The translations under genes were made by a program, and so were the position numbers. The notes under the pieces are model-generated. The model made no database searches and was not told the origin of the DNA. It saw only the letters and a program-made list of their open reading frames with translations. Positions 4,162-20,984 of a stretch of 64,000 nucleotides of DNA are shown piece after piece. This DNA comes from Mesoterricola silvestris (GTDB lineage Bacteria; Acidobacteriota; Holophagae; Holophagales; Holophagaceae). Every line of letters begins with the position of its first letter. Position 1 is the stretch's first letter. Where the stretch lies: contig NZ_AP027080.1 of the NCBI RefSeq assembly GCF_030295405.1, forward strand, positions 1,798,001-1,862,000, written 5' to 3'.

Positions 4162-4818
4162 TCACCCGATCCGGTCGGGGGATTCGTGGGCCGATAGCCG
4201 CCCGTGGCCCGTCAGGAGGCTGTGGCCCAGCTTGTGCCAGAACTTCCGGAAGTAGGTGACGGCGCTCCACACCGAGAGGATCATGGCGACCCACAGGAGC
4301 AGCACGCCCATGCCCCAGAAGAAGCTGTAGGGCCTGGGGAACCTGATGAAGAAGCGGAAGATCCCGAGGTGCGTCCACTCCAGGAGCCAGAGGTCGAGCT
4401 TGGGGCCCAGGAGGAGGCAGGAGATGGAGGCGATCTGGAAGCCCAGCTTCCATTTCCCCAGGCGCTCGGCGGCGATGGTGACGCCCTCCTCGCTGGCGAT
4501 GCCCCGCAGCCCCGTGATGGCCATCTCCCGGCCCAGGATGATGAAGGTCATCCAGGCCGGCGCCATGTCCAGCTCCACCAGGCTGATGAGGGCCCCCATG
4601 ATGAGGAGCTTGTCCGCGAGGGGATCGAGCAGCTTGCCCAGGGTGGTCACCTGGCCCCACTTCCGGGCCAGGTACCCGTCCAGGAGGTCCGTGAGGCTCG
4701 CGGCCCAGAAGACCAGGACGCCGATGATTTCGTGGTTGGTGACCCGCGTCAGGAGCACCACCACGAGGATGGGCACCATGAGGATTCGGGCGAGGGTCAG
4801 GTAGTTCGGTACGGTCAT
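4162..4818 (-). CDS. pgsA: CDP-diacylglycerol-glycerol-3-phosphate 3-phosphatidyltransferase
   Basis: A 218-residue integral membrane enzyme that makes phosphatidylglycerol phosphate from CDP-diacylglycerol and glycerol-3-phosphate. The CDP-alcohol phosphatidyltransferase motif DG-x2-AR-x8-G-x3-D-x3-D is intact (DGYLARKWGQVTTLGKLLD then PLAD). The opening TVPNYLTLARI is typical of PgsA, and several hydrophobic helices follow. It heads a leftward operon with the DUF502 and SDR genes. Confidence 0.93.
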   Translation of the reverse strand: MTVPNYLTLARILMVPILVVVLLTRVTNHEIIGVLVFWAASLTDLLDGYLARKWGQVTTLGKLLDPLADKLLIMGALISLVELDMAPAWMTFIILGREMAITGLRGIASEEGVTIAAERLGKWKLGFQIASISCLLLGPKLDLWLLEWTHLGIFRFFIRFPRPYSFFWGMGVLLLWVAMILSVWSAVTYFRKFWHKLGHSLLTGHGRLSAHESPDRIG

Positions 4819-4938
4819 GGGGAAATCGGCGCTTTCTGGGCTCTCGTCCTTGGACGGTGGAAGGGTCTAGCGGGTTGAAACTCCAGTCTACCGGCTCCGG
4901 AGCCGGTTCAACCCATCGAAGGACTTGTCTTAAATTAT

Positions 4939-5544
4939 TTATAGTATCGTCAATTCCCCTTTGCCGGCGAGGCGCTGCCACTGGGAGTCCTCGATGACCT
5001 CGAAGGCGCCCCCGGGCCCGTCCGGGAAGAGCAGGCTCCCCCGGGACACCCGCACCGGGGTGCCCCGGGCCTGGAGGGCCGTCAGGAGCGCCAGGGCCTC
5101 GGGATCCTCCAGCAGGCCGGTGGCCTCCAGGGCCAGGGCCACCCAGGGCACCTGGGGGTCCAGTTCACGCAGGACGCCCAGGAGCAGGCGCCGGCCCACG
5201 CCGCCGTTGCCGTCGCCCAGGGCGGCCCGGGTGAGCAGGAGGGGCCTGGGCGCGGCCGGGGCCGGGGCGGGGATGACGCGCACGGCGGGCTCCGGGGCGC
5301 GGGCCAGGGCCGGCGCCGGCGCGTCCCGGGACGCCGTCTCGACGCGCCAGCCCGAGCCCTCCCGGAAGGGGGTGGCGGTGCGTCCCGAGCGCTCCAGGAA
5401 CCGCTGCACGTTGTGCAGGAGCATGTCGTCGCCGCCGATGACGATGCGCAGGGGAAGGCCGGGGTGGTCCTCCAGCACCCGGTTCACCTCCCGGAGGGCC
5501 TCGGAGACGGTGACATCGAAGAGCTCCAGGGTCAGTATATCCAT
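4939..5544 (-). CDS. YedF-like protein: degenerate TusA domain plus DsrE-like domain
   Basis: A 201-residue protein. Residues about 1-72 have the fold pattern of a TusA/SirA domain (a V-x4-GG..M..NVQRFLE segment, then a GSGWRVE strand), but the CPxP motif that carries the sulfur-accepting cysteine is replaced by an FDVTVSEAL stretch. An Ala/Pro-rich linker (about 74-100) leads to a DsrE-like domain (LLLTRAALGDGNGGVG to the end), as in the YedF selenium-metabolism family. The loss of the Cys suggests a structural or regulatory role, not sulfur transfer. It is the last host gene before the prophage; the attachment site should lie close to its 5' end. Confidence 0.6.
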   Translation of the reverse strand: MDILTLELFDVTVSEALREVNRVLEDHPGLPLRIVIGGDDMLLHNVQRFLERSGRTATPFREGSGWRVETASRDAPAPALARAPEPAVRVIPAPAPAAPRPLLLTRAALGDGNGGVGRRLLLGVLRELDPQVPWVALALEATGLLEDPEALALLTALQARGTPVRVSRGSLLFPDGPGGAFEVIEDSQWQRLAGKGELTIL

Positions 5545-17436: not shown

Positions 17437-17445
17437 GGTGGGCTC

Positions 17446-18405
17446 CTATTTGCGGGACTTGAGTTGACGGCGAACCTTGTCGGAGGCGTAGATGTCGCTG
17501 CATCCCTTGGGCAGCTTCAGCCCTTCGGCGCTGGTCAGGCTGCTGAGGTAGAGCCACCCGCCGATGCTGTCGGGCAGCTTCAGCCCTTCGGCGCTGGTCA
17601 GGCTGCGGAGGTCGAGCCACCCGCCGATGCTGTCGGGCAGCTTCAGCCCTTCGGCGCTGGTCAGGCTGCGGAGGTCGAGCCACCCGCCGATGCTGTCGGG
17701 CAGCTTCAGCCCTTCGGCGCTGGTCAGGCTGCTGAGGTAGAGCCCCCGCCGATGCTGTCGGGCAGCTTCAGCCCTTCGGCGCTGGTCAGGCTGCTGAGGT
17801 AGAGCCCCCGCCGATGCTGTCGGGCAGCTTCAGCCCTTCGGCGCTGGTCAGGCTGCTGAGGTAGAGCCCCCGCCGATGCTGTCGGGCAGCTTCAGCCCTT
17901 CGGCGCTGGTCAGGCTGCTGAGGTAGAGCCACCCGCCGATGCTGTCGGGCAGCTTCAGCCCTTCGGCGCTGGTCAGGCTGCGGAGGTCGAGCCCCCCGCC
18001 GATGCTGTCGGGCAGCTTCAGCCCTTCGGCGCTGGTCAGGCTGCGGAGGTCGAGCCACCCGCCGATGCTGTCGGGCAGCTTCAGCCCTTCGGCGCTGGTC
18101 AGGCTGTGGAGGTCGTAGTTGAGGTTGCGCCCGCTTTCAGCCATCTGCCGGATGCAGTCGTTGATACAGTCGATCCGGCGCGGAAACTTGGCCAGGATGG
18201 CGCTCTTGAACTCGTTCCGGTCCTCGCCGGGCATCACGCGGATATCCAGGGAGTCGCCGGTATCCTCCCGGGTCCACTCGAATTCCCGGTAAGTTTCGGG
18301 CTTGAGTTTGAGGATGGCTAGGGTGGCGTCGTGGCTGGTGAGATCGAGGCAGAGCACCTTGGGGTGTTTTTCGATGGTCACGAGGCCGGAGAGAAACTGA
18401 CACAT
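17446..18405 (-). pseudogene. Leucine-rich-repeat phage gene broken by one-base deletions in repeats
   Basis: From 18405 the frame encodes a 97-residue N-terminal domain (opens MCQFLSGLVTIEKHPKVLCL) followed by 21-residue repeats of the type LTSAEGLKLPDSIGG plus a WLDLRS strand, a leucine-rich repeat seen in phage proteins. It stops at 17848 after three junctions. Three successive 62-bp units, instead of 63 bp, cause this (short C runs at 17743, 17805 and 17867). The deletions sum to three, so the last units and the natural tail (ending DKVRRQLKSRK, TAG at 17446) are again in the starting frame. Either the gene is decayed, switches by repeat change, or the C runs are sequencing errors. Confidence 0.75.
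17509..18110 (-). repeat. Tandem 63/62-bp repeat array, about 10 units
   Basis: Ten copies of a core that reads LTSAEGLKLP on the minus strand, joined by nine nearly identical junctions. Six junctions are 63-bp units and three consecutive ones (4-6 from the left) are 62-bp. Units are almost identical at the DNA level, so the array must have expanded recently. It encodes the repeats of the leucine-rich gene. Confidence 0.9.
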
Positions 18406-18429
18406 TGCAGGTTCCTTTCTGGTTTAGGC

Positions 18430-19712
18430 ACACTCCCTACGCTCTCGCCATGAGGGGATAGGAAACGCGCAGATAGGGTCCAGGGAGGGGAAGGATTGAG
18501 CGCTACCCGCTACTCGCGCGCGCATTCAGCGCGGACGTTCCTAACTCCCCCGCACGTCAGGGCGTATGCCTACGCGGTCTGACGCTCCCTGGATGGGGAT
18601 CGGATCGGCCTCCGCACGTTGGCCCGCCAAGGCCAGGGGTTGCCGATCCGATTTTGAGATTGGAGCCACACACAAGGCGCCAGGCAGGTCCAAGCATTCC
18701 ACCGGCACTCCTGGCCGCCTTGTGTGTGGGTTGTCACATGCTGCCGAGGCGTCGGCTAGAGGCCCAACGGGATCAGGGCCACGGTCGCAACCCGCGCTTC
18801 CCTTCCGTCTGCCGTGCATGTGATGGGGCCAGCGGGGCGCGTCAACGCATCCCGCTGGGTTGTCCTGGGCGCGTCGGCTTGAGGCGCTACAGTCCCAGGA
18901 TGGGGGGATTGGCGGGGGCTTCACGTTGTGGCCCCCCTGCTAGGCGTTGTGCGGACCGAATGCGGGGTTAGCGCATGGTGCCAGTGCAGGTTTTCACGCG
19001 GCAGGACGGAGTGATTCCGTTGATCTTCGGTCCAGATATGTCCCCTGTCGATTGTTGATGGGCGCTCTATGCCCCGACAGCGCGTGATGGGTGGTGCTGA
19101 TAGGTTCCTGGGGGCCGGGCGCTACTCCGGCTCTCACGAATAACGGATCGTGCCGCCTCGCGTGTCCGCTTTCCACGTCGCCCCAGGATGCCGGTCTTCC
19201 CCGACTGCCATTCGGACTGAAACTTTGGTGGGCCATCCGACTGCCGCTCGAAGGCGGGTGCATATATCCCCTTGCTGGCGGATTGGTAGCAGGTGCGGGA
19301 GTTGAACCCGCCTGGATGAGCTTATGAGACTCTTCCGGTCATCCGGACCACCTGCATCAGATACCGGATGTCGGGGATTCTTTATCAGCCCCTATCAGGA
19401 CCAACCCGCGCTACAGCCCAGCCGTGATTGCTCTACGGCTCATCCGGTTTGGTTACCCGGTTACCACATCCGGGGCCGTCATCTCGCTACGGCGGCTGTA
19501 TCTAACGCCCCATCCGGGGAGGGCTCCCAATTCAGGGAGACTCAACCCAACTCTGCCCTGGCACTCGCTGCAAGGCGAGCTAGTCGTGAGGGCAGAGCAG
19601 GGACAGACTTCCCGCGCTTCCATGGTTGAGGCCACTTCGCCGCCATCGGCCCAGGGACGGAGGTCCCACCGATGCGATTGCACCTGTCATTTCAGGTTGG
19701 GGAATTAGGTCG
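18430..19712 (-). ncRNA. Candidate large structured non-coding RNA
   Basis: About 1.3 kb with no credible coding frame but many perfect helices. Examples: a 14-bp stem 18666-18679/18716-18729 capped by a further 5 bp; 11 bp 18599-18609/18642-18652; CCAGGGAG/CTCCCTGG enclosing nested stems near 18480-18592; CCAGCGGG/CCCGCTGG near 18830-18857; CTGTCG/CGACAG with an inner GGGC/GCCC near 19045-19080; 9 bp 19551-19559/19589-19597 with inner CTCGC/GCGAG; CATCGG/CCGATG near 19645-19675. A tRNA-Met-like gene lies inside. This resembles the large ornate RNAs (GOLLD, ROOL) that phages carry beside tRNAs. Strand is inferred from the surrounding operon and the tRNA. Ends are approximate. Confidence 0.5.
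19284..19356 (-). tRNA. tRNA-Met-like (CAT anticodon), atypical
   Basis: Acceptor TGCAGGT/ACCTGCT with a T:T clash at the first pair, discriminator A and encoded CCA; D arm TCCG/CGGA; anticodon loop CTCATAA identical to elongator tRNA-Met; T arm GCGGG-TTCAACT-CCCGC. Oddities are a G where U8 is expected and a short D loop without GG. It could serve as a phage Met or modified Ile tRNA, or be a tRNA-like domain of the surrounding RNA. Confidence 0.7.
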
Positions 19713-19713
19713 G

Positions 19714-20136
19714 CTACTGCCAGAACGAAACGTAAAGCTCGGTGAATTCCTTCATGCCGTTGCGCCACCGTTCTTCCAGGGGTGCCCGCCATGCCTCGTA
19801 GGATTTCACGCCAACCCAATCGTCACTCACGAGGGTTTCCATGGCCTCCCACCCGTCCAGGATGATTTCCAGCTTGGCCTTGTATTCTTCGGGCTCCAGG
19901 TAGAGCGGATGACCGTGGTGCCGGTCCAGGAATTCCTTCATGAGCCCGCGCGTCACCCCGGCGTGGTAGCTGCACAGGTCGAAGATGTCGCCCGGGGCGT
20001 AACCGTATCGCGCCCTGGCCCAGGCATCCTGCAAATCCCACCAGAGAAGGCGGGGGGCCTGGAGCCAGTGGAGCCACCAGCGGTCGCAGAAGGGCCGCCA
20101 CGAGTTTGAGACGCGCCATTGAACGTAGTTGGGCAT
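19714..20136 (-). CDS. Phage hypothetical protein
   Basis: A 140-residue Trp- and Tyr-rich protein (opens MPNYVQWRVSNSWRPFCDRW; later YLEPEEYKAKLEIILDGWEA). GAAAGGA precedes the ATG. It lies immediately before the structured RNA region, two bases from its proposed end. No family recognised. Confidence 0.65.
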   Translation of the reverse strand: MPNYVQWRVSNSWRPFCDRWWLHWLQAPRLLWWDLQDAWARARYGYAPGDIFDLCSYHAGVTRGLMKEFLDRHHGHPLYLEPEEYKAKLEIILDGWEAMETLVSDDWVGVKSYEAWRAPLEERWRNGMKEFTELYVSFWQ

Positions 20137-20199
20137 AGTGTCCTTTCTTTGTTGAACTTCATCGAACGCCAGGGCCGAAACGCTGGCGCTCGCTGAAAC

Positions 20200-20376
20200 T
20201 CAAAGGCATGCCCAGGATCGGAAATCCTTCAGGAGTTCGGAATTGGGCGTCTTCTGCCGCTTGCTTGGGGGTAGGTCCCTCCACCATCGGGCCGCGACCA
20301 CCACACGGTTGGCTAACCCCGCGTTGGTCACCATGGCCAGGAAGTGCATTCGCTTGTCTTCGGCTTGTTCGGTCAT
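20200..20376 (-). CDS. Small phage protein, 58 residues
   Basis: It opens MTEQAEDKRMHFLAMVTNAG and is followed by a basic aromatic stretch (VVVAARWWRDLPPSKRQK). A clear AAAGGAG lies seven bases before the ATG. It starts 60 bp downstream of the tmRNA 3' end, across a UUCG-capped hairpin. No family recognised. Confidence 0.55.
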   Translation of the reverse strand: MTEQAEDKRMHFLAMVTNAGLANRVVVAARWWRDLPPSKRQKTPNSELLKDFRSWACL

Positions 20377-20436
20377 TGATGCTCCTTTCAGGGTTGTCTT
20401 GATCGAAGGGTCCGAAGACCCCTCGCTTAAAACAAC

Positions 20437-20752
20437 TGGTGGATCTGCGGGGAATCGAACCCCGGTCCAAGAAGAAAAATCACATTCGCGGATTACAGGC
20501 TTTGCACTACAGGGTGCTGGTTAAGCACCTCCACCACCTGACCAACTGCCACGGGGTCAGGTCCGTTGTGCCCCGGGTTTAATCCCAGAGCATGGTTAGG
20601 CGGCCTGCGCCATGGGGCGGAAGCTGCGGGCAAACGGAACAACATTGCTGTGTTTGGCGTTTTGCTTTTGATCGGCTTGATGAGGGGGCCAACCGATCAA
20701 CCCCCGCCTGCGCTTGTGCAACCTCTCAACCTGTCGAAACCTTGTCAGACCC
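20437..20752 (-). ncRNA. ssrA: tmRNA (transfer-messenger RNA) encoded in the prophage
   Basis: A 316-nt gene. The 5' end GGGTCTG pairs over 7 bp (one G:U) with CAGATCC near the 3' end, followed by A and an encoded CCA. The tRNA-like signatures are AAGGTTTCGACAGG near the 5' end and GGGGTTCGATTCCCC for the T arm. A tag frame fits in the middle: from GCC at about 20653 it reads AKHSNVVPFARSFRPMAQAA then TAA, ending in AA like known degradation tags. tmRNA frees stalled ribosomes and marks products for proteolysis. It lies 15 kb inside the prophage, so it is phage-carried. No smpB gene is seen nearby. Confidence 0.88.
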
Positions 20753-20984
20753 AGGCTCCTGGATGGGCTCCAGGGGGCCTTGTTGCGTCACCGCGCAGGA
20801 TTTCGCCAGCCTCACTGGGTCAAGAACCCGTTTTGCGGTGTCTGTTTTCTCGGCCCCCTTAGCCACGCTTCGTTGTCGTGAGTCCGGGGTGATTTTCAAA
20901 GAAGGTTGGAAGCCATGACTCCCAATGCCTCAAGCCCGGGCTCTCCGGGCAGTGCGGGAAACATGTTTTGGGGATCAGATGGGG

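Follow-up and report, generated by a model that had tools for sequence, protein, structure and literature searches.

The closest described systems to the 1.3-kb region of Mesoterricola silvestris prophage DNA analysed here are the giant phage RNAs GOLLD and ROOL, phage tRNA and tmRNA clusters, and the short RNA elements of phage early leaders. With GOLLD and ROOL the region shares a phage or prophage location, a non-coding and highly structured sequence, a position near tRNA genes and a similar length. GOLLD forms a homo-oligomeric nanocage. Its 3' region is universally conserved and its 5' region is variable (PMC12286853). A search of Rfam 15 with expectation values of up to 10, covering positions 18300-20900, returned no match to GOLLD, ROOL or OLE, but only weak tRNA- and tmRNA-type matches and other chance matches, and the tmRNA discussed below is the only hit at gathering score. 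The membership in the GOLLD or ROOL families that an earlier sequence-only reading had considered is thus not supported by the covariance models. The region further differs from GOLLD in that no relatives were found for its 3' 760 nt, which lie downstream of the conserved hairpin described below, so that it displays no conserved 3' region of the GOLLD type.

Like phage tRNA and tmRNA clusters, the early operon that contains the region carries a tmRNA and a tRNA-like element with a CAU anticodon, and in other phages the conserved hairpin lies 3-7 nt ahead of ordinary tRNAs; unlike them, the region is mostly not tRNA, and its tRNA-like element departs from canonical geometry. The HK022 putL and putR sites, which are approximately 70 nt long, consist of two stem-loops of other sequence (PMC9378689). 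They resemble the hairpin as short RNA elements in phage early leaders that are thought to be independent of a phage protein, but the HK022 put regions hold no such hairpin and their sequence differs, and an assignment as a put RNA was rejected. HEARO, the IscB omega RNA (RF02033), has no match in the window (the whole 64,000-nt stretch of DNA analysed); the hairpin falls outside the HEARO model, and the scanned phage loci carry the hairpin without HEARO. The reading preferred here, with a probability of about 0.5, takes the region for a group of clustered non-coding phage RNA modules within a leftward early transcript, in which the hairpin serves as an end or processing mark.

Genomic context and coding potential

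The window, which comes from a 4.99-Mb chromosome, holds most of a temperate siphophage of approximately 54 kb, integrated as a prophage, whose genes in the window include those for an integrase, a RecE-like exonuclease, a CII-like regulator, a terminase and a major head protein. A leftward early operon, mostly on the minus strand, begins at roughly 23 kb on the repressor side and runs to 6 kb, towards the integrase. Two of its genes, at 19714-20136 and 17848-18405, flank a gap of 1308 bp (18406-19713), which is the longest between any two called early-operon genes. No coding frame in this gap scores, and its ORFs have no convincing match in Pfam or PHROGs; a coding origin was ruled out on the lack of such family matches, in keeping with the absence of a credible protein frame noted from the sequence alone. 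What is found instead is a helix-dense, non-coding RNA region with an excess of stems over shuffled sequence, and together with the tRNA-like and tmRNA genes it makes up the structured, RNA-rich early-operon locus that had been described. The RNA is expected from the minus strand, because the neighboring genes lie on that strand, a point left unmentioned in the sequence-only reading. On the same strand, at 17437-18405, tandem repeats of approximately 60 bp encode leucine-rich-type units (LTSAEGLKLPDSIGG), with a break in the frame near 17848; the number of these repeats may change through recombination.

The phage tmRNA (20437-20752, minus strand; RF00023, 92.8 bits) belongs to the same operon and lies 725 bp from the region, upstream in the direction of transcription, as had been stated. 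It was not called by ARAGORN. The host carries its own, distinct tmRNA elsewhere; the phage tmRNA has a long tag frame ending in AKHSNVVPFARSFRPMAQAA*, unlike the host tag ANDNFELALAA. A similar tmRNA, with a tag ending in LPAAA, precedes the same modules in a prophage of a sister species (genome G001, vide infra), and apart from these two cases few genomes of the class have a second tmRNA that is clear.

Helices and predicted fold

Exact stems of at least 8 bp with a span of at most 130 nt number 11 in the region, against 2.8±1.8 (maximum 8) in 150 dinucleotide shuffles and a mean of 3.0 in other 1283-nt segments of the sequence, one of which had 10. The helices of 14 bp (18666/18729), 11 bp (18599/18652) and 9 bp (19551/19597) are all present where the sequence-only reading had placed them, and a 14-bp stem was seen in none of the 150 shuffles. 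Since sliding MFE z-scores on the transcribed strand are only mildly low (mean -0.6), the excess is one of long exact helices and not of overall stability.

The stems tile the region serially on the minus strand, from 19597-19551 through 19473-19364, the tRNA-like element, 19188-19106 and 19033-18953 to further domains ending at 18479. The domain at 19364-19473, which adjoins the tRNA-like element, is closed by an exact 8-bp helix (CCGGATGT/ACATCCGG). Another exact 8-bp helix (TCCTGGGG/CCCCAGGA) closes a domain at 19106-19188 with a predicted branched fold, which begins 1 nt past the conserved hairpin, where other phages carry a tRNA; no tRNA is called 3-7 nt downstream of the hairpin in the window. 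The further domains (19033-18953, 18823-18734, 18729-18666, 18652-18599 and 18593-18479) are likewise closed by exact helices, of 8-14 bp.

A tRNA-like element with a CAU anticodon

ARAGORN calls a tRNA-Met(CAT) at 19284-19362, and the cloverleaf that fits the sequence runs from 19355 to 19284 on the minus strand, with a CAU anticodon loop and an encoded CCA. Its acceptor stem has 6 bp and an unpaired first position, linkers are missing, the D loop has 5 nt (CGGAU in the window), the extended anticodon arm consists of 3 bp, an A·A mismatch, 4 bp and the loop CUCAUAA, and a variable loop of 2 nt is followed by a T loop of sequence UUCAACU. An identification as canonical tRNA-Met was rejected, as the 7-bp acceptor stem, standard linkers, D loop of at least 7 nt and 5-bp anticodon stem of that class are absent. 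The CAU cloverleaf of the tRNA-Met-like gene proposed earlier at 19284-19356 is real, and it is non-canonical.

A gap-free alignment of this element with its counterpart in G001, which has CGGAY as the shared D loop, retains 22 of 22 pairs, with 8 double compensatory changes and no broken pair; when the partners were slid by 1-3 columns as a control, 27-41% were paired and no double changes were seen. A model built from these two sequences (R1) was discarded as a specific probe, because it also picks up ordinary host tRNAs, and only its 49-bit match in G014, a genome of another genus, was therefore used. This third tRNA-like sequence agrees with the other two in its D loop, its A·A mismatch and its CUCAUAA loop, and is partly decayed in its T and acceptor stems. 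The CAU tRNA-like pattern had no match in IMG/VR. In G014 (contig C7, locus L464), 17 tRNA genes within 3 kb enclose the decayed copy.

The G014 copy, partly decayed within a 17-tRNA array, and the lack of recognisable genes in the region would both fit a decayed phage tRNA array or set of genes, in which everything except the tRNA-like element is a functionless remnant. That origin is nevertheless very improbable, given that the tRNA-like element keeps all 22 of its pairs through compensatory change and that drift would erase the excess of long perfect helices.

Modular composition of the locus

In a BLASTN search of 100 related genomes, the single further match was to G001, which represents a sister species of the same genus. 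Its prophage is distantly related to that in the window, with a homologous CII-like gene and homologous early and several later genes (23-54% identity). At the same place in the early operon, the G001 prophage has its tmRNA, the tRNA-like element 3 nt further on, a TTGAGTCTCCC...GGGAGCCCT element and finally a hairpin, GGCAGCCGGGAAAGACCGGC. The tRNA-like element and the hairpin are separated by 73 nt in the window and by 69 nt in G001; the TTGAGTCTCCC element is upstream of the tRNA-like element in the window and downstream of it in G001. The second element shared with G001, GGGTTGAGTCTCCCTGAATTGGGAGCCCT, at 19520-19548 on the minus strand, is 86% identical over 29 nt and forms a hairpin (CTCCC/GGGAG) with a 6-nt loop; within the class it is carried only by the window genome and G001. 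The shared modules are packed into about 170 nt after the G001 tmRNA, and the remaining sequence of the 1.3 kb has no counterpart in that locus. Elsewhere, the TTGAGTCTCCC element had no match in IMG/VR, a clear phage-type pair such as that in the window and G001 is absent from the other genomes of the class, neighbor proteins led to no related phages in IMG/VR or in the class of the host, and DNA similarity to phage records was limited to a weak match at the tRNA.

Two modules are conserved as RNA structures, the CAU tRNA-like element and the hairpin 73 nt further on, and both show covariation in homologues. The shared parts can be regarded as modules because G001 has them compact and reordered, without the rest of the 1.3 kb, an arrangement that favours a modular RNA cluster over a single conserved giant RNA. 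It is possible that one transcript covers the whole 1.3 kb. The stronger proposal that the 1.3 kb constitutes a single new giant phage RNA resembling GOLLD or ROOL, with the tRNA-like element in a linker and assembly into a large complex, draws on the length, the density of helices tiling the region, the tRNA association and the early, prophage location, and the GOLLD linker does sometimes hold tRNAs (PMC12286853). A single giant RNA, whether a family member or a new class, was also what the sequence-only reading had suggested, but it is not what G001 displays, where the modules are compact and in another order; taken with the lack of an Rfam match, the lack of a conserved 3' region and the mild local fold z-scores, this makes such an RNA unlikely.

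The UGRCR/GRAAGA hairpin

The hairpin at 19190-19210 (minus strand; UGGCA-GUCGG-GGAAGA-CCGGC) is a member of a phage motif defined here as (C)UGRCR, a variable 5-bp stem with a G-C closing pair, the loop GRAAGA and a following A. The window copy, TGGCA-GTCGG-GGAAGA-CCGGC-a, conforms to this definition and scores 24.2 bits in a motif scan in which the reversed sequence gave no matches. At least 120 stretches in IMG/VR match the string GGCAGNCGGGNAAGACCGGC, almost always in DNA that is non-coding and in phages that are not otherwise related, and the motif read backwards matched none. The motif counts are lower bounds, and the instances, gathered by exact patterns, may represent only part of the variety of the loop. 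In the fetched loci, the motif strand has 131 hairpins with a 5-bp stem and the loop GAAAGA and the opposite strand has 4, and loops of scrambled order turn up 0-9 times with both strands taken together.

Pairing of the stem was assessed through queries with free stem positions, since the full set of 302 instances was selected for pairing and only these queries are exempt from that bias. With three free stem bases, 102 of 123 matches were complementary, mostly with a common stem. With four free stem pairs, 59 of 88 were fully complementary, against a shuffled mean of 10.6 and a maximum of 18, and these 59 comprise 27 stem sequences; each of the four pairs has cases in which both partners are changed. 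In a comparison of 252 contexts, only CTGRCA-stem-GRAAGA-stem-A and a short tail are conserved, and conservation stops at the edges of the hairpin; hairpins outside the coverage of the queries have the same 5' TGRC.

The motif is present in phages and in other mobile DNA of many phyla, as a rule in intergenic positions and on the coding strand. Named records with it come from Pseudomonadota, Bacteroidota, Bacillota, spirochaetes, Planctomycetota, Chloroflexota, Oligoflexia and cyanobacterial phages. Pokken (50 of 76 kb scanned), Medea1 (50 of 59 kb scanned), mEp390, P7641 and ESP2949-1 each have one strong intergenic copy in the sequence scanned; those of mEp390 and Medea1 belong to the early region and lie close to the repressor. 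The early leader of an E. coli prophage contains three copies. The motif was rejected as a general chromosome feature of the host's phylum, since 14 of 396 genomes there carry it, a frequency close to that of the reversed control. Rfam 15 has no family for the hairpin, and no description of it was found in the open-access papers searched by sequence and topic, subscription literature lying outside that search. As far as could be found, the novelty of the locus lies in this motif and not in the 1.3-kb region as a whole.

Position and possible role of the hairpin

A tRNA or tmRNA starts 3-7 nt past the stem in 25 of the 302 instances and 8-26 nt past it in none; on 190 independent groups, the corresponding figures are 13 at 3-7 nt and 0 at 8-75 nt. 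Where a tRNA lies upstream, 40 nt or more separate its end from the hairpin, and tRNAs and hairpin share a strand in 95 of 96 cases. The most enriched neighbor is the T-arm sequence GGTTCRANYCC (same strand, 56 versus 3 of 163 groups), and many such T arms near the motif lie outside called tRNAs. Most hairpin instances have no canonical tRNA directly downstream and many precede genes, with the next gene codirectional in 79 of 93 loci. Conserved sequence ahead of the motif can give way to unrelated sequence directly past it. In three MAGs the hairpin follows HEARO by 31-94 nt.

Three of these features, namely the immediate start of the next element (3-7 nt), the fact that conserved upstream sequence can meet unrelated sequence past the motif and the copies that follow HEARO, suggest that the hairpin may mark the point at which a phage non-coding RNA has its 3' end or is processed. 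Recognition of the hairpin and its 5' CUGRCA would fall to a conserved RNA factor of the host, and would set the structured RNA ahead, which in the window includes the tRNA-like element, apart from the tRNA, tmRNA or gene starting a few nucleotides on, or would stabilise it against that neighbor. No phage protein partner is shared near the motif, where just common early genes were found, and a host factor is therefore indicated, for processing and antitermination alike.

Antitermination is the main rival to a processing role because of the early-leader copies. The hairpin would then act in cis against termination or polarity, as HK022 put and lambda nut do, binding the elongation complex so that untranslated, structured stretches and early terminators are read through. 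Single or few copies do occur in early leaders beside the repressor (mEp390, Medea1 and the E. coli prophage), the downstream gene is codirectional in the proportion given above, some copies lie 11-20 nt ahead of a terminator-like hairpin, and a target universal among hosts is suggested by the distribution across phyla. However, both sequence and fold are unlike those of HK022 putL and putR, terminator-like sites downstream are hardly enriched (9 versus 4-6 of 190), and antitermination would not need tight phasing of 3-7 nt to tRNA 5' ends, which leaves this alternative with a modest chance of being correct.

The copies downstream of HEARO, the presence of multiple copies in some MAGs and the location of some at contig ends raise the question of whether the hairpin acts as single-stranded DNA, for example as the end hairpin of IS200/IS605-type or IscB-type elements; the short, fixed sequence that flanks the hairpin at its 5' foot is reminiscent of such ends. 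With one strong copy per scanned phage stretch, no HEARO at the scanned phage loci, a strand bias with genes and the phasing to tRNAs, an action as DNA is extremely improbable.

A wider proposal can be put forward tentatively, as one somewhat short of even odds: UGRCR/GRAAGA may be an RNA signal, employed by phages of approximately eight or more bacterial phyla, through which a host machine of universal conservation is engaged, and which in the window forms part of a tRNA-mimic RNA cluster. The candidate machine under the same tentative proposal would be either RNA polymerase or the machinery that processes tRNA and other RNA. If true, this would represent a new class of RNA control element common to phages. 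The motif points to a shared phage RNA mechanism that annotation misses and provides a signature for finding phage non-coding RNAs; its 22 nt, whose covariation was tested blind, whose distance to tRNA 5' ends is fixed and whose hosts belong to many phyla, offer an experimental handle.

Other elements near motif copies

Several further arrangements were observed around copies of the motif. Locus L086 has another phage-type tmRNA (4717-5077, minus strand), with a motif hairpin that ends 7 nt before its 5' end. In L060, L046, L340, L216 and L081, a T-arm hairpin, a CTCGYTNRCCGAG hairpin, TTTGGTAAG and a second T arm recur 45-120 nt before the GRAAGA hairpin; this element, for which ARAGORN makes no call, looks like a permuted tRNA-like mimic of the tRNA elbow. 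The non-viral MAG contigs L334, L307 and L301 have HEARO, a spacing of 31-94 nt, the GRAAGA hairpin, another hairpin and a start codon in succession, and this unit is present in several copies before different genes and is possibly a non-autonomous mobile element. The GGAAAGACC loop of the motif resembles the 23S rRNA segment around A2058-A2062, possibly by coincidence. Finally, in the early leaders of the enterobacterial prophages L208, L226 and L283, the stretch from the repressor to the first early gene has GGAAAGACC hairpins in arrays as well as an intrinsic terminator.
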